IMG/VR virus record: IMGVR_UViG_3300029449_000246
Span: 1 to 36,075 of that record
DNA from: a virus
DNA: 36,075 nt
Strand: one strand, 5' to 3'
Positions 17,613-35,230 of this stretch are shown piece by piece. The notes under the pieces are model-generated. The model made no database searches and was not told the origin of the DNA. It worked only from the letters and a program-made list of their open reading frames with translations. Made by a program: the position numbers and the translations under genes. The first letter of the stretch is position 1. The number at the start of each line of letters is the position of its first letter.

Positions 17613-17837
17613 CTAATCCATTGGAATAATACTTGTTACTTTTGCACCACGAGTTCCAGCCAATCTGTTACACATGTTCTCCCAGTAGCTCAGTCCGTTT
17701 CTTACCTCTGTGAGGTTTGCCCTGGTCAGGGTACGGCCTTTTATCTCATAGCTTTGTCCTGCTAGAATCTTTTCTTCTGCAGTCAAGTATGCTGCATATC
17801 TTGCTTGTGCCTCTGCCAAAGTTAATCCAGTACTCAT
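17613..17837 (-). CDS. GpW-like / DUF6148 head-tail joining protein
   Basis: 74 residues. Two-helix small protein with LAEAQARYAAYLTAEEKILA and GQSYEIKGRTLTRANLTEVR, the pattern of lambda W and the DUF6148 group. Lambda W (68 residues) plugs the portal and is required for tail joining. It overlaps the TerL stop by 4 bases and precedes the portal gene, the lambda order A-W-B. Confidence 0.88.
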   Translation of the reverse strand: MSTGLTLAEAQARYAAYLTAEEKILAGQSYEIKGRTLTRANLTEVRNGLSYWENMCNRLAGTRGAKVTSIIPMD

Positions 17838-19666
17838 ACCTCAACTCCTTTGCTTTTTATTTTCTTTTTCACCTTTTTAGGCTCTGCGATGCTAGTATCT
17901 GCCAGTCTGCTGAGCTCTTCTTTTTTTAGCTGCACTAAATAATCGAAATTTGGGTCAAGTATTTCCATTGCTGCCGTGTTATAGTTACGAATATCCAGCT
18001 GTTCATTTGCCCTCATCTGTTTCCATTCCACATAACCTTTTCCCCGTCTCATTCCTATGACTTTCTTCTCTGCTGTAAGGCCTTTGAAATATTTGTCTCC
18101 ATATCCTGCATAAGAATTAAGTGGGAAATGGCAGTAACCTGGGGTCCCATCTTCCGTTGATAGTCTTGAATAAGTCAGATCTTTTAATGCATTTACCCCG
18201 AGACTCCATAACATAACTTTTTTATTTTTCTTGGCCTGTGTAACACCGTTTAATATTGGCTTACCTTCTCCACCGATTCCTTTGATTGCATATATTCTTC
18301 TTGTGTACTGCCTTTGTTCTATGAAGTCATAGGCTGATTGTGTATGATGTCCCCCTGTATCTATACAGGTTGATGCTATTTTTATAGGTGTCCCGTCACC
18401 GTAATAGAACTCTTTATTGAGAAACTCATCAAGATCCTGCCATACTTGAGGGCTTCCAGGATCTCCAGGAAATACTCTGTACTGTATTCCCCAACTTTCT
18501 TTCCCGTGGCCCCATCCGACTACTTCACATTCAAGCCTGTTGTCTTGGATATCCACAGCACTTGTTACGAGAAGTACGCCATCTGGAACCTGTGCTTTAT
18601 ATTCTTCTCTTCTTGCAAGAAGCACTTCCCAGTCAAGTTCCTTTCCTTCTTCCTCTACCCAAGCCTCACCAAGGGAGGTATTTACCCAAACTTTCAGGGT
18701 TTCTCTGTCTTGTTTTGCAGTCTTGAAGTTTTCTATGATCTCTTCCCAGGTCACCCACGGTGATGCAAATTCATTTAGGTGGAATCCTCTGTGTTTCTTG
18801 TTTTCCTGTCTGCCTTTCCATTTCCCGTACTTGCTCCCTGATTTCCACTCGTATTCAGAGTGAAGAGTTCCGCAGGTATTACATTCCATACCCACAGGGT
18901 TAAAATTTATTCTTCCCCATTCATAGGGCTGTAATTCTCCACAGCTTGGACATGGTACACACCATTGCTCCATTGTAGAGTTGTTGTATAGTGTTTCTAT
19001 CCTGCTACGCCCTGATATAGTTGGAGTAGATACCCTGACCAGCTTTCTGTTACGGAAAGTTGTGGTTCTTTTTTCCACTAGTGAAAGCGGATCTCCCTCT
19101 TCCCCTGCTGATCCAGGGAATCTGTCTACCTCGTCTGCTATTACTACCCTTATAGGTCTACTTGCCAGGGAGCTAGGAGAGTTTGCTCCCACAAAAGCCA
19201 TGTATCCTCCAGGAAAGCTTTTTTCTTTTACGGTGTTTTCAGCCCCTTTTTTATTTGGGTCTTTTACCTTATCCCGTAGCACTGGAGAATCTCTCAGCAT
19301 AGGGGCTACTCTTTTTTTAGAAAAATATTCACTCATATCCACAGTTGGGAGAATGATTATTATCGGGCTTGGATCCTGGTGGACAAAATAACCTATATAG
19401 TTTAGTTCTATAGCTGTCTTCCCTACCTGAGCAGAAGCCATTACTGTTATCTCTTCCACGCCCTGTTGATTTATAGCGTCCATTATCCCTTTTTGGTAAG
19501 GGGCTCTTGAGGTTTTCCACCTTCCAGGCTCGGCAGAATCTTCAGGAGAAAGCATTCTGTAGGTATCTGCCCACTCTGATACCGTTAAATCAGGTGGAGG
19601 AGTAAATTTATTCATCAGTTTTTCGAGGTCGAATTTGTGATTTCTTTTCACTTGCCTACTCAGCAT
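17834..19666 (-). CDS. A: Terminase large subunit (lambda A / GpA type)
   Basis: 610 residues (lambda A: 641). N-terminal packaging ATPase: Walker A-like SAQVGKT (about 78-84), Walker B VVIADEVD (about 174-181). A zinc-knuckle follows (CPSCGELQ ... CNTCG). The C-terminal nuclease has SAVDIQDNRLECEVVGWG with the likely metal Asp. GpA-type terminases usually make cos ends. I choose ATG 19666, 11 bases inside the end of the Nu1-like gene, with GGTGAT upstream; a reading from 19708 would overlap that gene by 53 bases. Confidence 0.95.
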   Translation of the reverse strand: MLSRQVKRNHKFDLEKLMNKFTPPPDLTVSEWADTYRMLSPEDSAEPGRWKTSRAPYQKGIMDAINQQGVEEITVMASAQVGKTAIELNYIGYFVHQDPSPIIIILPTVDMSEYFSKKRVAPMLRDSPVLRDKVKDPNKKGAENTVKEKSFPGGYMAFVGANSPSSLASRPIRVVIADEVDRFPGSAGEEGDPLSLVEKRTTTFRNRKLVRVSTPTISGRSRIETLYNNSTMEQWCVPCPSCGELQPYEWGRINFNPVGMECNTCGTLHSEYEWKSGSKYGKWKGRQENKKHRGFHLNEFASPWVTWEEIIENFKTAKQDRETLKVWVNTSLGEAWVEEEGKELDWEVLLARREEYKAQVPDGVLLVTSAVDIQDNRLECEVVGWGHGKESWGIQYRVFPGDPGSPQVWQDLDEFLNKEFYYGDGTPIKIASTCIDTGGHHTQSAYDFIEQRQYTRRIYAIKGIGGEGKPILNGVTQAKKNKKVMLWSLGVNALKDLTYSRLSTEDGTPGYCHFPLNSYAGYGDKYFKGLTAEKKVIGMRRGKGYVEWKQMRANEQLDIRNYNTAAMEILDPNFDYLVQLKKEELSRLADTSIAEPKKVKKKIKSKGVEV

Positions 19667-20114
19667 CTTTATCACCAAACCCTCTAGATAATTCCTCAAG
19701 TGCCTCATATATCTCTTTTTTCAGCTCTTGCTCTATATTGTCCTCATTATCCATGTGCTTTAGCTGTGGTGATACTTTTTTAGGTATTGTCAGCAGCCTT
19801 GACCTGGTTACAGTTATCATTTTCTGATAGAAGTCTTCCACCTCTGCTACTGATATGACTCTGTTTTCCATCTCATCTATCTGTATCTGAAGTTTTCTTT
19901 TCTGTAGATCCTTTAGTTCTTTATCATCTTTGGAGTTTTTTTGTTCCAAGTATTTGATATATTTTTTTACAGATTCCCCAAAGTCGTAATATCCAGTCTC
20001 CAGTCTAACAAGGATATTTCTTGAAGCCATGTCTCTGACTGTTCTCTCAGATATTCCTAGCACTTCCGCCAGTTTTCCGGAGGTTGTTTTGACGATATTC
20101 ACTTTTTTTGCCAT
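19656..20114 (-). CDS. Terminase small subunit (lambda Nu1-like)
   Basis: 152 residues. N-terminal winged helix-turn-helix (SGKLAEVLGISERTVRDMAS), then coiled helices (LKDLQKRKLQIQIDEMENRV) and a C-terminal VTRSRLLTIPKKVSPQLKHM, the pattern of lambda Nu1 (181 residues): DNA recognition, self-association, TerL binding. AAGGAGG lies six bases before the chosen ATG at 20114; the frame is open to 20180 but has no ribosome site there. It would bind cosB-like sites upstream. Confidence 0.85.
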   Translation of the reverse strand: MAKKVNIVKTTSGKLAEVLGISERTVRDMASRNILVRLETGYYDFGESVKKYIKYLEQKNSKDDKELKDLQKRKLQIQIDEMENRVISVAEVEDFYQKMITVTRSRLLTIPKKVSPQLKHMDNEDNIEQELKKEIYEALEELSRGFGDKDAE

Positions 20115-20146
20115 AGAAAACCTCCTTGTGGCGGCAGCCATTTTTG

Positions 20147-20210
20147 ACGGCAAACCTAAAAATTTTTTAATATCTCCCACCGTTCGGGCTCATTCTGACC
20201 CGCAAGCCGT
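20147..20210. other. Candidate cos/packaging-site region with inverted repeats
   Basis: Short GC-rich gap before the Nu1-like gene. ACGGC (20147-20151) pairs with GCCGT (20206-20210) and CGGG (20185-20188) with CCCG (20199-20202). In lambda the cos site lies just before Nu1. This is position plus base composition only. Confidence 0.3.
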
Positions 20211-20228
20211 AAAATTCCCTGGAAGAAC

Positions 20229-20783
20229 CTATTCATATATGATCTCTTCTTCATCACTCTTGTCTGTTGTTAGGCCTGCCTTGTGTTGATCTACTTTCAG
20301 CTTCTCAGCCTCTATCTTCTTCTTGGCTGTGAGTTCTGCTTCTTTTAGTTCTTGCTTCTTGGCATCTGATACAGAGTCAAGTGAAGCCTTGCTCGATATC
20401 TCAGGGCCAAGTATTCTCTCTAAGATGTCATAATAGTTCTTGGCATCCTTGGAATCCGGATGCATGTCTTTTTCTGAATAAATAAATCTACTGAGTTCTT
20501 TATCGTAGTTAACCAGCCTTCTGGCATCTATCCCGATACTCTCTCGTAGTCTGTTGCTTACACCTTTCACTAGTTCAACCAGATCTATTCCAGAATTTTT
20601 TAATATTTCAGATCTTCTCATCATGATATATTCTTGAAACTCAGGTTCTCTAAAAAGTTTATATGCATATGCAGCTGGTTTTTTTATCAGAGGATCTATC
20701 TCTTTTATAGCTTCTACCCTGTTTCCTCTGTTTCGGAGATAAGCTTCTGCTATATCTATTTTCTTTTCTGTCAATCTAGCCAT
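20229..20783 (-). CDS. Terminase_2-like small-subunit protein (XtmA type)
   Basis: 184 residues, first gene of the late operon. N-terminal part (LTEKKIDIAEAYLRNRGNRV, EAIKEIDPLIKKPAAYAYKL, EFQEYIMMRR) follows the Terminase_2 pattern 'F...Yl...n...A...aGys...a...a..LL....v..yi'. Middle helices match its oligomer part and the C-terminus is acidic (KSDEEEIIYE). It is unusual that a second small-subunit candidate of Nu1 type lies next to it; one may have taken another role, such as a DNA-binding regulator of the late operon. GAGAGG six bases before the ATG. Confidence 0.7.
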   Translation of the reverse strand: MARLTEKKIDIAEAYLRNRGNRVEAIKEIDPLIKKPAAYAYKLFREPEFQEYIMMRRSEILKNSGIDLVELVKGVSNRLRESIGIDARRLVNYDKELSRFIYSEKDMHPDSKDAKNYYDILERILGPEISSKASLDSVSDAKKQELKEAELTAKKKIEAEKLKVDQHKAGLTTDKSDEEEIIYE

Positions 20784-20926: not shown

Positions 20927-22021
20927 TTAATGATGGCTTTTTTTCAAAATTAAACTCAGACCTTGAGTATATTTCAGTCTGATTTCTATTTCTAAAAGCA
21001 ATATCTCTCTACAAAATTCTTCGAGTCTTTCTAAGTTATTGAAATTATCCCTCATGGGGCTTGACCTCTGTTGTGATTCCATTAATGCTTTTCTTATTGT
21101 TTTTCTATATCTTTCAGTTTGACAATTACTAACATTTGATACATTGGTAACTGCAAGATTCATTACTCTGTCGTCCAGTGCCCACTCTTGATAATCTTTG
21201 ACTAGGCTTTTTAATTCTCTTGGATTGAAGCCTTTCAGCTTTCTTTCCAGGTATTCCAAATTGTTATGCATCTCTTTGGATAATGCATCAAATAACTTTA
21301 AGCCGTTGAAGTCCTGGAGTTCTGATGAAAGATACTCCAGTGTCAATTCGTGAGGCTTTGCTGTGGAATAGAGTGACCTTAGTCCTCCTTTTGTTAAATC
21401 CCACTCGCCCCTGAGCTTGCCACCGACTTCTTTGTCCAAAGTCTTTTTATTGTGCTCATGCAGCTTACTGTAGACCTTGAGGTTCATACCTTTTAGAAGT
21501 TTAAAAGCAAACCCCGTAGAATAAAATCTGTCTAACATGGATGAATAATCTCCGTAGAAACATTTTTTTTGGTCAATAGGCTCAAAGTTTTTATGAAGTA
21601 GTCTGTAGATGAAGATAAGTATGTTATGCATCTTGTAGAATGAACCTACATAAATCTGCATACATAACTCTATATTTCCATACTCTAAGTCTGGCCTTGT
21701 AAATTCTTCATCTGTTATTTGTGAAAGTACTGTGCATATAGCTTCTTCCACTTCTTTTTTTTCAGTGTTTTTTTTTACAGGTTCGATATTGTCATCTCTG
21801 TAGTATCTGGGGTAATTGAAATCAATCATAATCCTGGACTTGATTTGCTTGTCCACTACTCTGAAGTGATTTATCCATTTGTGATCAACACGGATGATTT
21901 CATCCCCTCTTTTGAACTTTTCACTGTTTGACAGTTTGAAGTCTCTGAGGATAGAAGCAACTACCATGTCAGATTCTGTATTTGTAACAGCCCAGACACT
22001 TGCTCTGTCTAATCCGATCAT
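20927..22021 (-). CDS. Rolling-circle-type (filamentous phage) replication initiator-like protein
   Basis: 364 residues. No exact motif proves the family. The order of parts is like the phage CRI (gene II) replication group: a strand with KSRIMIDFNYPRYYRDDNIE (as in 'r.e.slpkll.g.N...l'), helix VEEAICTVLSQIT, TRPDLEYGNIELCMQIYV ('i.R.Dva.nf'), then LKGMNLKVYSKLHEH ('...k.YdK..e') and GKLRGEWDLTKGGLRSLY ('lR.E..l....L'). The Tyr in VYSK is the likely catalytic region by comparison. It is not P2 gpA. It starts 1 base after a 61-residue gene. An unrelated replication gene lies in the early operon, so this looks like a second, captured replication unit. Function is inferred. Confidence 0.5.
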   Translation of the reverse strand: MIGLDRASVWAVTNTESDMVVASILRDFKLSNSEKFKRGDEIIRVDHKWINHFRVVDKQIKSRIMIDFNYPRYYRDDNIEPVKKNTEKKEVEEAICTVLSQITDEEFTRPDLEYGNIELCMQIYVGSFYKMHNILIFIYRLLHKNFEPIDQKKCFYGDYSSMLDRFYSTGFAFKLLKGMNLKVYSKLHEHNKKTLDKEVGGKLRGEWDLTKGGLRSLYSTAKPHELTLEYLSSELQDFNGLKLFDALSKEMHNNLEYLERKLKGFNPRELKSLVKDYQEWALDDRVMNLAVTNVSNVSNCQTERYRKTIRKALMESQQRSSPMRDNFNNLERLEEFCREILLLEIEIRLKYTQGLSLILKKSHH

Positions 22022-22022
22022 T

Positions 22023-22208
22023 TCATTCCCATTCCCCCATTCCCGGTCTTATTTTTTTCTGAGAGGTCCATCGTATTTTTCTATTTTTGTTTCCTGCATG
22101 TCTTTTGGCAGCTTTACGGGTAGTGCCTAAATAACCAAACGAATCATATTCAATCTCATATTCTCCATTTTTAAACCTATAACACCAGTTAGAAAAATCA
22201 TCTTTCAT
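22023..22208 (-). CDS. Small basic protein before the Rep-like gene
   Basis: 61 residues, GGGAGGGG before ATG. Rich in Lys, Arg and aromatic residues (NWCYRFKNGEYEIEYDSFGY, RKAAKRHAGNKNRKIRW), so nucleic-acid binding is possible. Not recognised. It is tightly linked to the Rep-like gene (1-base gap) and follows the hairpin leader, so both are probably translated from one transcript. Confidence 0.65.
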   Translation of the reverse strand: MKDDFSNWCYRFKNGEYEIEYDSFGYLGTTRKAAKRHAGNKNRKIRWTSQKKIRPGMGEWE

Positions 22209-22245
22209 ACTACCCCTCCCTGATATTTTTTTAAACTTTCACCCA

Positions 22246-22316
22246 GGACGACAAAGGTTGGTAAAAGGACTTGATCTCAAGTAAATTATTTGGATCCTTA
22301 CTCTCCCTTGTCGTCC
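22246..22316 (-). promoter_or_regulatory. Long hairpin in the leader of the Rep-like unit
   Basis: Outer arms of 12 bases (22246-22257 and 22305-22316) pair with one G-U. Inside, AAGGA pairs with TCCTT and encloses the palindrome ACTTGA-GA-TCAAGT (22269-22282). It lies 38 bases before the 61-residue gene. It may be an RNA control element or a rolling-circle origin hairpin. Confidence 0.65.
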
Positions 22317-22339
22317 GACATGAAAATTTAAAATAAAAA

Positions 22340-22394
22340 AGGGCCACTTAAAAAATAAAATTACATAAAGTAAAATTACTTTTTAAGCAGCCCT
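22340..22394 (-). terminator. Intrinsic terminator after the structured RNA segment
   Basis: On the minus strand AGGGC-TG-CTTAAAAA pairs with TTTTTAAG-TG-GCCCT, then a T-rich run (TTTTTTATTTT). The arms are 5 and 8 bp with a 2x2 internal loop, and the loop holds a further TTAC/GTAA pair. It ends transcription coming from the DUF2292-like gene. Confidence 0.75.
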
Positions 22395-22497: not shown

Positions 22498-22635
22498 TTA
22501 GTCTATGGAAACTACTTTTGAAGGTCTTATGAAACATACCTTCCCGTTTTTTATGCATATTTCTATACTTCCGTACCCCTTATCTTCCGATACATACGAT
22601 ATTTGCTTTTCTATTTTTTCAAGTATTTTTTTCAA
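22498..22635 (-). CDS. DUF2292-like small protein
   Basis: 45 residues, TTG start with GGGGG seven to eight bases upstream. The pattern KKILEKIEKQISYVSEDKGY then GSIEICIKNGKVCFI matches the DUF2292 group, short proteins of the form 'IL..l..i.yGsv.iiihdGkvvqI.r'. Function of the group is unknown. It is the last gene seen before the structured RNA segment and terminator. Cys at residues 27 and 34 are not family constants as far as I know. Confidence 0.65.
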   Translation of the reverse strand: MKKILEKIEKQISYVSEDKGYGSIEICIKNGKVCFIRPSKVVSID

Positions 22636-22856: not shown

Positions 22857-23552
22857 TCAGGAACTTTTGTTAGTAAAAATAGACTTTAGCATTAAGATAA
22901 AATTTAATATATTTTGAGGGTGAACTATAGATATAATAATAATTGTTAATATTAAATAAGCCGCCATTATATAAATTAAAGGCTTTAAATTTATTTCATC
23001 GTCTGACATTAATGATTTGAAAAGAACTGTCATTAAAATGAGCCCGCCTACAAAAGTAAAATTTAGAAGAGAAACTACCGTTAATATATGACTTATACGA
23101 AGTTGTCCTATGTCATTAAAGACATTAAAATTAATAAAGATGAATCCCAAAAGTCCTGTAAAAACAGAAATAATATTAACAAAACTATTTTTCATTTTAC
23201 TAATTTCTTTTAATTCCGTTTCAACTTCTTTTAATTTGCTAGTTAATTCGATTTCAACATTTTTTCTGTTATTTTCAGCTTTTTCAGCTCTATAATGATC
23301 ATGGAATTTTTCACTTTTCCTCATTACCTGAGTAAATCTTTCGGCTTCATTTTCTTTGAATTCCAATGTTCTCATTAAAGCTTGACTTTTAATTTTATCA
23401 ATCTCACTGTTAATTGAATCATCTAAATCCATACATTCATCAAACTTCTTTTCTTCTATTAATGCTTCAAAAGAATCTACTTTAGAATCTAATTCACTTA
23501 AAAATTTTGATATATCATCAATTTTATCTTCAACTTTTAGTAATCCGGTCAT
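22857..23552 (-). CDS. Coiled-coil protein with three membrane segments, candidate toxin
   Basis: 231 residues, not recognised as a named family. Residues about 5-120 are acidic/charged helices likely to form a coiled coil (SKVDSFEALIEEKKFDECMD, ELTSKLKEVETELKEISKMK). Three hydrophobic segments follow, at about 125-145, 155-180 and 188-210, ending in a short basic tail. It starts 12 bases after the Panacea gene, with GGAGTG before the ATG. Panacea antitoxins pair with many unlike toxins, among them membrane-acting ones, and the second gene of such a pair is usually the toxin. This makes a membrane-damaging toxin or an abortive-infection effector plausible. Not shown by any motif. Confidence 0.75.
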   Translation of the reverse strand: MTGLLKVEDKIDDISKFLSELDSKVDSFEALIEEKKFDECMDLDDSINSEIDKIKSQALMRTLEFKENEAERFTQVMRKSEKFHDHYRAEKAENNRKNVEIELTSKLKEVETELKEISKMKNSFVNIISVFTGLLGFIFINFNVFNDIGQLRISHILTVVSLLNFTFVGGLILMTVLFKSLMSDDEINLKPLIYIMAAYLILTIIIISIVHPQNILNFILMLKSIFTNKSS

Positions 23553-23564
23553 AAAAACACTCCA

Positions 23565-24074
23565 TTACGCAAACCTGTAAGCTAGTACTGGATTTTTTGA
23601 CCCGTTGTCACATAGCTTTCTATCAAGTTGTTTATAAAAATTCTTTATCTCTGCTTCATTAATTTTTTGAGTAGATGAGTGCATAGAACCATAACCTTTT
23701 CTAGCTGATATCCAAGGAGTTTCATTATGAGATGCTTCTACCAAGGTTGTATCATTATATTGTCCATATAAAAAAGCCACCTTTTCAATAAAACGTTTAA
23801 TATCGTCTGAAAGGCCTGCAACTTCTTCATCTGAAACACTTTCAGAAGTGTATGACCAATTATATTCATAGGTTAATACCCTATAAGCATCCCTTACAAC
23901 AGGTCCATTTATCCAGGCTTCAAAATGTTCTCCAAACAACTCCGTGTCTCTTTCTTGGTAAAAATGTCCTTTAGCAAAATATAATATTTTCATTATTTTT
24001 ACTTTTGAGCAAGTATAATTGAATTTTTGTAACATTTTAATTACATATTTAGTTACTAAAAATAAATTGTTCAT
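23565..24074 (-). CDS. Panacea-domain (SocA-like, DUF4065) antitoxin-like protein
   Basis: 169 residues. The Panacea domain is clear: VKIMKILYFAKGHFYQERDT ('klqKLlyfaqg.yl...g..lf'), FGEHFEAWINGPVVRDAYRV (family 'e.feAW..GPVvp.vy'), GQYNDTTLVEASHNETPWIS ('l...sH.e.PW'). Panacea proteins neutralise bound toxins in PanAT pairs, often carried by prophages; SocA instead works as a proteolytic adaptor for SocB. AGGTGAG precedes the ATG, and a good promoter lies upstream. First gene of the operon with the TM protein. Confidence 0.88.
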   Translation of the reverse strand: MNNLFLVTKYVIKMLQKFNYTCSKVKIMKILYFAKGHFYQERDTELFGEHFEAWINGPVVRDAYRVLTYEYNWSYTSESVSDEEVAGLSDDIKRFIEKVAFLYGQYNDTTLVEASHNETPWISARKGYGSMHSSTQKINEAEIKNFYKQLDRKLCDNGSKNPVLAYRFA

Positions 24075-27196: not shown

Positions 27197-27874
27197 TTAT
27201 TCTCCATCCTCATTTATCTGTCCTATAAAACGTCCTACCATTTCCAGGGTATCTCCTTCTTTTAAAACTATATCAGGATAATCCCTGTTATCACTTCTGA
27301 GAAATACTTCCCCGTCATTATTAAAATATCTCTTTAATACGGCCTTATTATTATAAATAAAAGCTCCTATCTTCTTGTTGGGTACTTCCACACCTTTTCT
27401 GATAAATACTATAGATTTATCCTCAATGGTATATTGCATGGAATCCCCAGATACTTTTATTGCAACAACGTCTCCTGAAAAGTGTTTTATCTCAGGAACA
27501 GCTATAAACTCTATTTCTTCACTTTCAAGCTCCTCTAACCCTAATCCCGCTGAGATAGAGCTGTACAGCGGTATCTGTTTATATTTGTAATTCAAATCTA
27601 AGTTACTTTCTATCTTAAGTTCATCTTCATCCAGATAACCAACTATTTTATAAAGCTCTTTATAATCGATTCTTAAGGCAGCAGCCAATTTTTGTAATTG
27701 ATAAGGGTTAATTCTTTTATTTGTTCCATTCATAATTTTATTTAAAACACTAACATTAATCTCAGCTTTTAATGCTAATTGATTAAAACCCATTTTTTTT
27801 TCATTTCTTATATTTTCTAAGTATTCTGCTAATTTTCTTCTTGAATTTTCAGGTACTTCTGTACTTTTTTTCAT
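27197..27874 (-). CDS. CI-like repressor (HTH + S24 LexA-type peptidase)
   Basis: 225 residues. N-terminal HTH_3 (about 10-75: FNQLALKAEINVSVLNKIMN). C-terminal S24 domain: self-cleavage Ala-Gly in SISAGLG (109-110), nucleophile Ser145 in SGDSMQYTI, and Lys181 in AVLKRY. Maintains lysogeny and would be cleaved after RecA activation, so the prophage is probably SOS-inducible. Start at 27874 is set by GGGAGGT six bases upstream; the frame runs open to 27889. Divergent from the Cro-like gene across a palindromic operator region. Confidence 0.93.
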   Translation of the reverse strand: MKKSTEVPENSRRKLAEYLENIRNEKKMGFNQLALKAEINVSVLNKIMNGTNKRINPYQLQKLAAALRIDYKELYKIVGYLDEDELKIESNLDLNYKYKQIPLYSSISAGLGLEELESEEIEFIAVPEIKHFSGDVVAIKVSGDSMQYTIEDKSIVFIRKGVEVPNKKIGAFIYNNKAVLKRYFNNDGEVFLRSDNRDYPDIVLKEGDTLEMVGRFIGQINEDGE

Positions 27875-27910
27875 TAATCGACCTCCCAATTACATTAACA
27901 TCTTACACCT

Positions 27911-28800: not shown

Positions 28801-29274
28801 ATGGCTAGACCTGAATGTGCATTGTCACTGGAATTGGAGCAACGTATGAATTTATTTGTAAGAATCGGAACTATCGAAGAACACATCATTTACGGCGGTG
28901 CAATAGACCAGTCAGATGATGAGAGAAGAAAAGAGAGCTTTGGCTTGGACAAATACAGTGAGGATATGATGATCTACTTCTCAAGGCTCCTGAAAAAAGC
29001 AATTCAAAACAGAGACTGGGAGCTCGTAGAGCAAATTGACAGAGAGATGGATGATTTTAGCAGAAAGTACTTTACTAAGAGAAAAGAACTCCAGGAAAAA
29101 GAGCTGTATTATGAGGATTTGGACGACAAGCTGAGAGTTTGGATCTTGGAATATATAGCCAAGTGCCTGGAAAAAACTCGTGACGAAAGCTCAAAGATAG
29201 ATCTGAAATTAATAAGAGAAAACCTGGCAAAAAAGAGGAGGACATCTGAATGTCAAAACAAAAGTACACCATAG
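28801..29274 (+). CDS. Early protein before the replication gene
   Basis: 157 residues, ATG with GGGAGG six bases upstream. Helical and highly charged (SRLLKKAIQNRDWELVEQID, FTKRKELQEKELYYEDLDDK). Not recognised. It overlaps the replication initiator by 25 bases, so the two are co-translated. Such helical partners of phage initiators can be helicase loaders, but no P-loop is seen here. The short conserved-looking start MARPECALSLELEQRM gives no further clue. Confidence 0.65.
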   Translation: MARPECALSLELEQRMNLFVRIGTIEEHIIYGGAIDQSDDERRKESFGLDKYSEDMMIYFSRLLKKAIQNRDWELVEQIDREMDDFSRKYFTKRKELQEKELYYEDLDDKLRVWILEYIAKCLEKTRDESSKIDLKLIRENLAKKRRTSECQNKSTP

Positions 29275-30203
29275 CTGATGTGCAGCAGGAAAAATTAATG
29301 GAATGGGGGCTGGATATCAAAGATGCATTTATTTTGAGCTATCTGAGAGAACTGAGTCAGCTAGATACAATTATAAAAAAAGAAATTGATGATAAAACTT
29401 TTATTTGGATTGATTATGATGCACTTCTATCCTATCTCCCAGTTTTGAATATTTCAAATTCTGAAGTTATAGGGAGAAGGTTTAAGAAATATGAAAAAGC
29501 AGGTCTTCTTGTAAAGCATCTCCATAAAACAAAAGTTTACGGAACTTACACATTTTTTTACTTAGAGGATAAGTTTTTCGATCTGTTTGAGATCTCTAAA
29601 ATAAAACCATCTAAAGAAGATATAAATAAGCAACTTGAGAAAATGGGTCTTTCCAAAAAATCGACTCAAAAGTCGGGTGGTTTCGACTCAAAAGTCGGGT
29701 CTTTATCGACTCAAAAGTCGGTAGGTAATACTCCTATAAATATACTCCCAAAAAAAGATAGTAGTAGCACAGACCCTGCTGCCGCCTCTTCAGATGATTT
29801 TGAAAAAGAATTAAAAACTCTAATTTCTAAAACAAGTATCAGCAAACTAAATCCCAACACACTAAAAAATATTAAAAACTATTCTCGAGGCGATATCGAA
29901 CAGGTAAAGAGAGCTATTAAGTTTATGCAACGAAAAAATAAAAGCATGACAGCTGATATCCTAGTGGCAATATTGAGAGACAAGGATTTTGATGAAAAAG
30001 AAGCACTGGACCCTATAAAATTAAAAGCAAGTGACAAGATAGATTTCATGATAAAAAAATTGGGGAAAGCTAAAGTTAAAGAATTGAGAGACGAAGTTCT
30101 GAAAGATATAGGATTTGATGGTCCTCCTGTAGATAACGAACTTGGTAATATTCTTTGCCGACATTTCAATAAATTCATACAAGAGGGAGGGGTTTATGTT
30201 TGA
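29250..30203 (+). CDS. Replication initiator, O-like, with internal iterons
   Basis: 317 residues. N-terminal 115 residues look like a winged-helix (IKDAFILSYLRELSQL, IGRRFKKYEKAGLLVKHLHK, YGTYTFFYLEDKFF), as in phage replication initiators of the lambda O/phage RepA type. The middle (about 130-175) is low-complexity and is where the DNA carries three iterons. The C-terminus (LNPNTLKNIKNYSRGDIEQV, FMQRKNKSMTADILVAILRD) is DnaD/helicase-loader-like in pattern. AGGAGG eight bases before ATG. No separate helicase is encoded, so it probably recruits the host DnaB. Confidence 0.75.
   Translation: MSKQKYTIADVQQEKLMEWGLDIKDAFILSYLRELSQLDTIIKKEIDDKTFIWIDYDALLSYLPVLNISNSEVIGRRFKKYEKAGLLVKHLHKTKVYGTYTFFYLEDKFFDLFEISKIKPSKEDINKQLEKMGLSKKSTQKSGGFDSKVGSLSTQKSVGNTPINILPKKDSSSTDPAAASSDDFEKELKTLISKTSISKLNPNTLKNIKNYSRGDIEQVKRAIKFMQRKNKSMTADILVAILRDKDFDEKEALDPIKLKASDKIDFMIKKLGKAKVKELRDEVLKDIGFDGPPVDNELGNILCRHFNKFIQEGGVYV
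29661..29721 (+). repeat. Three iterons, probable replication origin
   Basis: TCGACTCAAAAGTCGG occurs at 29661-29676, 29683-29698 and 29706-29721, 22 and 23 bases apart; the first two extend to 18 bases. Each is a small palindrome (CGACT-caaa-AGTCG). Spacing breaks the reading frame, so the protein differs while the DNA is kept. An AT-rich stretch follows. Confidence 0.85.
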
Positions 30204-33807: not shown

Positions 33808-33921
33808 ATGAACGCTGTTATTATAAAGCCTTCCACTGAATCAAGTAGAAAGAATGCATTACAGATATTAAAATACTATGAAAAGGTGGAATCAAATGAA
33901 AAAAGCTCTCGTTTACTTAAG
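33808..33921 (+). CDS. 37-residue protein overlapping the integrase start
   Basis: MNAVIIKPSTESSRKNALQI ... NEKKLSFT. AAAGGAAG lies six bases before ATG. The stop falls 26 bases inside the integrase gene, in another frame, so translation of the integrase is probably coupled to it. Not recognised. Confidence 0.5.
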
Positions 33922-35230
33922 GGTAAGTGACCAGATGCAAGAAGATAGAGACTCCCTAGCTAAGCAAGAATTACAAGCTAGGGAGTATGTCAAAAGAAAA
34001 GGTTACTTCTTATATGACATAAAAAAAGATACAGCATCTGGAAAAGATGTAAAAAAAAGATATGGCTTCCAGGAAGTAGAGGAAGAGATTGAAAAAAATA
34101 CCTTTGATATACTTATCTTCTATGAGCTTTCAAGACTAGCTAGAAATCAAAAAGACATACATCAGTTGATATATAAATTAGACTACAATAATATAGAGTT
34201 TGAGTCCATGACAGAAGACTTCTTAAATGGAAACAATCCTATGAGTCGTGTAATGCTTGGAATAATTGCTTCTTTAGCAGAGAATGAAAGTAATATGATC
34301 TCCAAAAGAGTTCGGCTTAGAATGAGGCAGTATGCATCAGAGGGCTATCACCTGCATGGAGCCCCTCCCTTTGGTTATGACAAGAAAGAAAAGGTTCTCT
34401 ATCCAAATGAGGATGCAGCTACATTAAGAGGGTATTATGAAAGAATCGCTAAGGGGGAAAGTATTAGAAAGCTGGCGAAAGAGCATGAAACTCACTATAA
34501 TAATATGAGAGTGCTTCTTTCAAATATTACATATACAGGAAAGATTAGGTTTGGATTTGAAGGTACTAACAGGGCTGGAAAGAGAGTTAAAAATCTTGAA
34601 GGCGAGATATTCGAAGGAAAACATGAAGCCATTGTAAGTGAGGAGCTTTTTAACCTAGTCCAATCTATAATCGATGAAAGAGGAGCAGAGCAGAGAAGAT
34701 ATATAAAAAGGTCTAAATATCTATTAACAGGTATAATAAAGCATGACTCTTGTGGAGGAGCCTATTACAAAAAAAATAATTATGGCACCGAATATTATAT
34801 TTGTCATAAGTGCAGTAAAGGTATCAATAAAGAAAAAGTTGATAAGTTGATAATCAAAGAGTTTAAAAAATATGTTAAAAGTTTAGGATTCTTAAAGACT
34901 GCTAAGACCAACCAAAAGGGAAAGGAGAAAAAACTTAAAGAACTTAAATTAAAAAAAGAAAGGCTTACAGAAGTATACTTAGATGGTATACTTAGCAGAG
35001 AAAAATATAATAAGAAATTAAAAGAAATTGAATACGCTATCCAAGAGCTCACAAATGAGAGAATCGATGTCTCTAATTCAGTTAAGAATAACTTCAATAA
35101 TATGATAGATAAAATATCACGATTTGAAGAGTTAGAGGTAAAAGAGCAAAATACTATCTTAAAATTATTCATAAATAAGATTGTATATCTTGATAATGAT
35201 AGTGATATTCAAATATTTTTTAAAGTATGA
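33896..35230 (+). CDS. int: Large serine recombinase (phage integrase)
   Basis: 444 residues. N-terminal resolvase domain with catalytic Ser11 in VYLRVSDQ and the Arg-bearing ELSRLARNQK; NMISKRVRLRMRQYASEGY marks the domain end. Then the Recombinase domain (GYDKKEKVLYPNEDAATLRG), a zinc-ribbon (HDSCGGAYY ... CHKCSKGI) and a C-terminal coiled coil (KKLKELKLKKERLTEVYLDG). Start at 33896 from AGGTGG six bases upstream. It inserts and excises the prophage at att sites; it ends near the prophage border. Somewhat short for the group (450-600). Confidence 0.95.
   Translation: MKKALVYLRVSDQMQEDRDSLAKQELQAREYVKRKGYFLYDIKKDTASGKDVKKRYGFQEVEEEIEKNTFDILIFYELSRLARNQKDIHQLIYKLDYNNIEFESMTEDFLNGNNPMSRVMLGIIASLAENESNMISKRVRLRMRQYASEGYHLHGAPPFGYDKKEKVLYPNEDAATLRGYYERIAKGESIRKLAKEHETHYNNMRVLLSNITYTGKIRFGFEGTNRAGKRVKNLEGEIFEGKHEAIVSEELFNLVQSIIDERGAEQRRYIKRSKYLLTGIIKHDSCGGAYYKKNNYGTEYYICHKCSKGINKEKVDKLIIKEFKKYVKSLGFLKTAKTNQKGKEKKLKELKLKKERLTEVYLDGILSREKYNKKLKEIEYAIQELTNERIDVSNSVKNNFNNMIDKISRFEELEVKEQNTILKLFINKIVYLDNDSDIQIFFKV

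Follow-up and report, generated by a model that had tools for sequence, protein, structure and literature searches.

Tailed phages are known to use HUH enzymes as rolling-circle initiators, gpA of phage P2 being an example. Tyrosine nickases of the Rep_trans class are on record from plasmids, conjugative transposons and filamentous phages, to which archaeal viruses have recently been added (PMC4797284, PMC13107129). The nucleophile of RepDE is Y191, its metal ligands are D46, D142 and E214, and R189, K193, E196 and R212 are conserved around the active site (PMC4797284); RepDE numbering corresponds to RepD numbering plus three. The TATA-binding proteins (TBPs) have a fold in common with Rep_trans (PMC13107129). 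With regard to tailed phages, we found no report of CRI/Rep_trans proteins in the open-licence literature. In this article, we focus on a 364-residue protein encoded in a virus record and on its relatives, and conclude that a CRI/Rep_trans-like nickase is kept beside the packaging genes in tailed phages of Fusobacterium and similar bacteria, an assignment that is well supported as far as the class is concerned.

The Locus and Its Gene Neighbourhood

The whole stretch of DNA analysed, hereafter the window, is a virus record of 36,075 bases. Profile searches of its ORFs revealed a tailed-phage gene layout, in which the minus strand carries the packaging genes and, following them, a long block of further genes. 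The following genes are relevant here:

17834-20783, minus strand: packaging genes downstream of the 364-residue protein gene (profile matches)
17834-19708, minus strand: large terminase
19656-20180, minus strand: second of two small-terminase-like genes
20229-20783, minus strand: first of two small-terminase-like genes
20927-22021, minus strand: gene for the predicted CRI/Rep_trans-like nickase (phrog_36664), 364 residues, ATG start (ORF call, PHROGs, alignments, models)
22023-22208, minus strand: basic ORF of 61 codons, without family match
27197-27889: S24-type repressor
33878-35230: serine integrase

The ORF of the 364-residue protein, described in an earlier note on this DNA, was confirmed, and it sits immediately before the two small-terminase-like genes and the large terminase. 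The small basic gene that the same note had placed ahead of it corresponds to the 61-codon ORF, which ends one base before the start codon and is probably translationally coupled to the nickase gene. Further upstream, the window contains a minus-strand ORF of 45 residues (22498-22635) with a weak match to DUF2292 (E 0.002, below the cut-off), as well as a SocA/Panacea-domain gene, of a type often found as antitoxin (23565-24074, minus strand, E 4e-18), adjoined by a predicted membrane protein of 231 residues (22857-23552).

Direct profile and sequence searches with the 364-residue protein gave no Pfam, NCBIfam or PDB sequence match. The protein corresponds to phrog_36664 (E 4e-68), the function of which is unknown in PHROGs. 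Neither the window protein nor ten aligned homologues reach the gathering score of PF05144 (Phage_CRI), and none of them is matched by the PF02486 (Rep_trans) model.

A Family with a Fixed Slot

Sixteen family members were found, in the window, Fusobacterium phage Funu1, the F. animalis plasmid record pSB029A and 13 IMG/VR contigs, and the aligned homologue sets show about 32-38% identity to the window protein. The gene is under strong purifying selection in the two groups of close relatives tested, with dN/dS values of 0.04-0.12. Among the relatives examined in detail, it lies shortly before the terminase genes in 12 out of 12, and a methylase gene or a remnant of one is found just after it in 10. 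Two small genes precede it in most members of the Fusobacterium type, one of them coding for a Cys-rich zinc-ribbon-like protein of 63 residues (phrog_32869; L003:13025-13216 and equivalents). The latter gene stands directly before the nickase gene in the Fusobacterium members, a place occupied in the window by the unrelated basic ORF of 61 residues.

When 80 loci were fetched via a similar large terminase, 29 had at least 2.5 kb of upstream sequence, and the family gene was present in two of these. Together with the constant slot, this proportion marks the gene as accessory in a single phage lineage, where its position does not change. Two scans of genome contigs confirmed no homologue, and the family was not traced in bacterial genomes. 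With regard to individual records, a 218-kb Fusobacterium animalis plasmid record (L004; NZ_CP077186.1, 1-12777) harbours a Funu1-like phage module comprising the nickase gene, terminase and portal, which is either a phage-plasmid or an integrated prophage. Furthermore, two different prophage contigs bearing the same genome number (L101 and L008; IMGVR_UViG_2724679221_000003 and _000007) each carry a member of the nickase family.

Proposed Active-Site Residues and Predicted Fold

The residues proposed to form the active site are encoded at the following positions, those of codons 184-206 being derived from codon numbers:

21404-21472, minus strand: codons 184-206, with the proposed nucleophile Y184, K186 and E189, then R204 and the proposed metal ligand E206
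21668-21670, minus strand: codon of E118, proposed metal ligand, invariant in the family
22007-22009, minus strand: codon of D5, a proposed metal ligand located on the first strand and invariant in the family

The order of parts claimed earlier for this protein (D ... E ... YxKxxE ... RxE) is present, and across 12 homologues its residues are fully or almost fully invariant. In 15 out of 15 unguided MAFFT runs, Y184, K186, E189, R204 and E206 were matched to their counterparts in RepD (Y188, K190, E193, R209 and E211, respectively) or in gene II protein of phage IKe (Y198, K200, E203, R244 and E246). D5 was placed on gene II D3 in nearly all MAFFT runs, including those with the default matrix, and on RepD D43 in some, and E118 on IKe gene II D144 in the default-matrix alignments and inconsistently with regard to RepD; the placement of both residues on RepD depends on the alignment settings.

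The family shares ten invariant columns with eight gene II proteins, as against a maximum of seven in 150 column shuffles, and the same test with four Rep_trans proteins was not significant. Profile-profile comparisons using hhalign were marginal, since about 2 of 100 shuffles scored as well against RepD and at least 5 of 100 against gene II, and hhalign alone was judged too weak for relying on. The HMM cross-scores with the family are about as weak as those observed between gene II and Rep_trans proteins themselves. The HUH motif is absent among the invariant residues of the family, and no profile match to HUH endonucleases (P2 gpA, Rep_1, Rep_2) was obtained.

A protein bridging the family and Phage_CRI is encoded by another tailed phage, IMGVR_UViG_2574179702 (L135), in a slot between the terminase genes and a gene read as methylase-like from its N-terminal sequence only. 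This protein scores above the Pfam Phage_CRI cut-off (22.5 versus 21.7 bits), matches PHROG 702, annotated as replication protein, at 6e-6, and carries the residues of the family, namely, D14, K76, N82, E120, R177, Y179, K181, E184, R205 and E207, the match of D14 being lost in one of three alignment runs. Its pairwise hhalign comparison with the family was not significant alone, as 27 of 200 shuffles were as good. No homologues of the bridging protein were found in phages or other viral contigs, and a scan of viral contigs confirmed no Rep_trans relatives.

Two structural models of the 364-residue protein were compared with known folds. For model 1 (AlphaFold, pLDDT 68), the best PDB match is RepDE (E 2e-4), followed by TATA-binding proteins. 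RepDE is not among the PDB matches listed for model 2, the better one (pLDDT 76), and the viral BFVD matches of this model include A0A345MNV4, a Rep_trans protein of an inovirus (PMC13107129). In both models, the proposed catalytic Tyr is located on a strand, and not on a helix as in HUH enzymes. The TM-scores of the fold matches are low throughout for both models, and a TBP-like two-sheet fold, as opposed to an HUH fold, is therefore indicated by the models, not proven.

Taken together, the shared invariant residues, the fold matches and the bridging Phage_CRI protein support the kinship with CRI and Rep_trans proteins proposed earlier, and the 364-residue protein very probably belongs to this class of tyrosine nickases, as a distant relative. 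That its active site is a working one is also probable, with somewhat less assurance. The homology of this site to that of RepDE-type enzymes is supported, and we infer the chemistry from it.

Hairpins Upstream of the Gene

Two hairpins separate the gene pair from the accessory genes located upstream:

22229-22333, minus strand: long imperfect hairpin with 29 stem positions, including mismatches, and a loop of 47 nt (hairpin scan, folding)
22340-22394, minus strand: terminator-like hairpin with a T-run after it, which closes off the accessory genes and lies just upstream of the long hairpin (hairpin scan, sequence)

The long hairpin pointed out in the earlier note is real, and even longer than reported there, its outer stem having been cut off by the coordinates given. 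Across the entire 36 kb it has the top hairpin score, 46 compared with at most 33 in three shuffled windows, and its fold reaches z = -4.2 as DNA and z = -5.9 as RNA. It represents a candidate origin or a candidate RNA element of the 5' leader.

Comparable hairpins precede the gene or its operon in only some relatives, and their sequence is not common between groups. In L029, L030 and L031, the hairpin starts 93 to 246 bases before the nickase gene, and the three share an identical loop of 24 nt and covarying stem bases with otherwise different flanks. A hairpin is also present before the nickase gene in L005. As in the window, a terminator-like hairpin is directly followed in L135 by a second hairpin, of 30 pairs, which heads the methylase-Rep operon about 1.3 kb before the Rep-like gene. 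The Fusobacterium members have no hairpin near the gene, and several of them possess a conserved one 3.4-5 kb upstream.

These observations bear on two readings of the window hairpin, origin or leader RNA involved in antitermination or attenuation, which we regard as about equally likely. We give even odds to the reading in which the nickase acts elsewhere and the hairpin, instead of being an origin, serves as an RNA element of this kind at the start of the late operon, or as an operator. The opening of an operon after a terminator-like hairpin in both the window and L135, the distance to the Rep-like gene in L135, the identical loop and covarying stem of the three close relatives, and the very stable RNA folds all argue for such an element, whereas the hairpins of L005, L029 and L030, placed immediately before the nickase gene, also suit an origin.

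Other features of the hairpins were observed. The loop of L029, L030 and L031, AGGTGGACCTCCTAAAACAAATCA, contains CCTCCT, which is complementary to a ribosome-binding site and lies a short distance ahead of the GGAGGGG belonging to the nickase gene; this loop might act in translation control. In L031, a small ORF upstream of the hairpin looks similar to the DUF2292-like ORF of the window. The conserved long hairpin of Fusobacterium prophages (L003:9184-9264, L011:4494-4574, L012:3028-3108 and L006:3094-3187) comprises about 28 stem positions and a loop of about 25, with an RNA fold z of -4.5 in L003; in Funu1, it comes directly after the gene of a small HTH regulator, where the rightward operon begins. 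In the Fusobacterium group, an internal hairpin that covers the codons preceding Y184 was considered and rejected, since it follows from the conserved FQP...GWK residues; the window lacks this hairpin, and the base changes in the stem do not compensate each other consistently.

Proposed Role

From its conserved residues and modelled two-sheet, TBP-like fold, the 364-residue protein would be an enzyme of the CRI/Rep_trans type that nicks DNA by means of a tyrosine. By analogy with RepDE, D5, E118 and E206 would bind a divalent metal, and Y184 would attack one DNA strand, the enzyme staying joined to the 5' end, while the freed 3'-OH could prime unidirectional copying. Most likely, the nickase would cut the circularised DNA of the phage itself after induction, leading to rolling-circle copying, and the resulting concatemers would feed the terminase encoded just downstream. 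Within the window, the hairpin at 22229-22333 may tentatively be considered the leading candidate for the nick site, and a separate replisome-organiser gene would start ordinary replication early. We consider it evenly balanced whether the protein is a tyrosine nickase starting rolling-circle copying of the phage genome and supplying concatemers to the terminase. The position of the gene suggests late transcription, which was counted against an initiator role, whereas P2 gpA, the comparable initiator known from tailed phages, belongs to the early genes.

The presence of two unlike replication genes, put forward in the earlier note, holds for six of 11 records, namely, Funu1 and five IMG/VR relatives, in which a Phage_rep_org_N replisome organiser is encoded separately. 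It could not be upheld for the window, where the gene called O-like (29250-30203) was recognised by no profile library and showed no match to the Phage_rep_org_N of Funu1. A division of labour between two initiators is suggested by the six records. In its full form, an early replisome organiser would be followed by a gene II-like nickase switching the phage to rolling-circle copying at a hairpin origin, a scheme that is possible but rather doubtful.

Among the alternatives to an initiator role, a nickase of the CRI/Rep_trans fold might serve packaging, nicking or preparing the packaging site like the HNH endonucleases found beside terminases in other phages. In relatives with readable context, the gene keeps to one slot a short way ahead of the small and large terminase genes, and several of these relatives have a different replication gene; both points are consistent with this function. 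However, the nearest families that are recognised comprise replication initiators or relaxases, and a methylase gene usually lies between the nickase gene and the terminase genes; we deem a packaging function unlikely. A little less likely still, the protein may have kept its fold and DNA binding while its main work is that of a regulator or a structural DNA-binding protein, nicking having become secondary or having been lost; the late-operon position of the gene and the strong hairpins at operon starts, suggestive of a regulated leader, fit this idea, but the proposed catalytic tyrosine, lysine and carboxylates are invariant despite the low identity to the window protein. Finally, a captured or satellite rolling-circle element inside the prophage, as suggested in the earlier note, would fit the kinship with filamentous-phage initiators and, in the window, a gene pair coming after a terminator and hairpin, but it is very improbable, given that the deeply diverged members share one pre-terminase slot, including that in the module on a large Fusobacterium plasmid record, that selection is strongly purifying in the two groups tested, that the window contains no long flanking repeats, that the neighbours in the window and relatives are tailed-phage genes with no other inovirus-like genes, and that a search of phages, plasmids, viral contigs and genome contigs revealed the gene only in tailed-phage modules.

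The assignment as a CRI/Rep_trans-like nickase provides phrog_36664, a family of unknown function, with a likely enzyme class, and extends these nickases to tailed phages having a second replication gene. To our knowledge, no dedicated nickase is known for the change from theta to rolling-circle replication in lambda-like phages. If the proposed role is true, a single point mutation (Y184F) could probe this change, and if two initiators do share the work, the theta-to-sigma switch would be an encoded and testable step. Were packaging the actual function, the nickase would represent an unusual partner of terminase.

Comparison with Known Systems

The window protein would share its task with initiators of the P2 gpA type, likewise in a tailed temperate phage; however, gpA is an HUH enzyme, whereas the window family lacks both the HUH motif and a profile match to such enzymes. 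Rep-Arvir of archaeal viruses is likewise a divergent family of Rep_trans fold, present in viruses and plasmids and recognised by structure, and the same inovirus Rep_trans protein is found among its matches (PMC13107129). It differs in being archaeal, in its fusion to a winged-helix domain and in the KHYYM motif that replaces YxK; moreover, its activity has been demonstrated genetically (PMC13107129), whereas the window family is known from sequence and models.

RepD and RepDE (PF02486), from pC221-type plasmids, share with the window protein the YxKxxE and RxE motifs in register, with a spacing of 22 residues in the window protein and 23 in RepD, and RepDE is the best PDB match of one model. 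In contrast to Rep_trans proteins, the window family gives no profile match to this class and no significant result in the sequence column test, its helical C-terminus is unlike that of RepD, and if E118 and Q122 are read as D139 and D143, E and Q would replace the two aspartates of the central strand.

With regard to gene II proteins (PF05144), the window family has no Pfam or PHROG match to them and is hosted by tailed dsDNA phages, and the tyrosine and the E of RxE are 22 residues apart in the window protein, compared with 48 in IKe gene II and 28 in the bridging protein. Both nevertheless share the order D ... K/R-N ... D/E ... YxKxxE ... RxE, to which the ten common invariant columns add further likeness.
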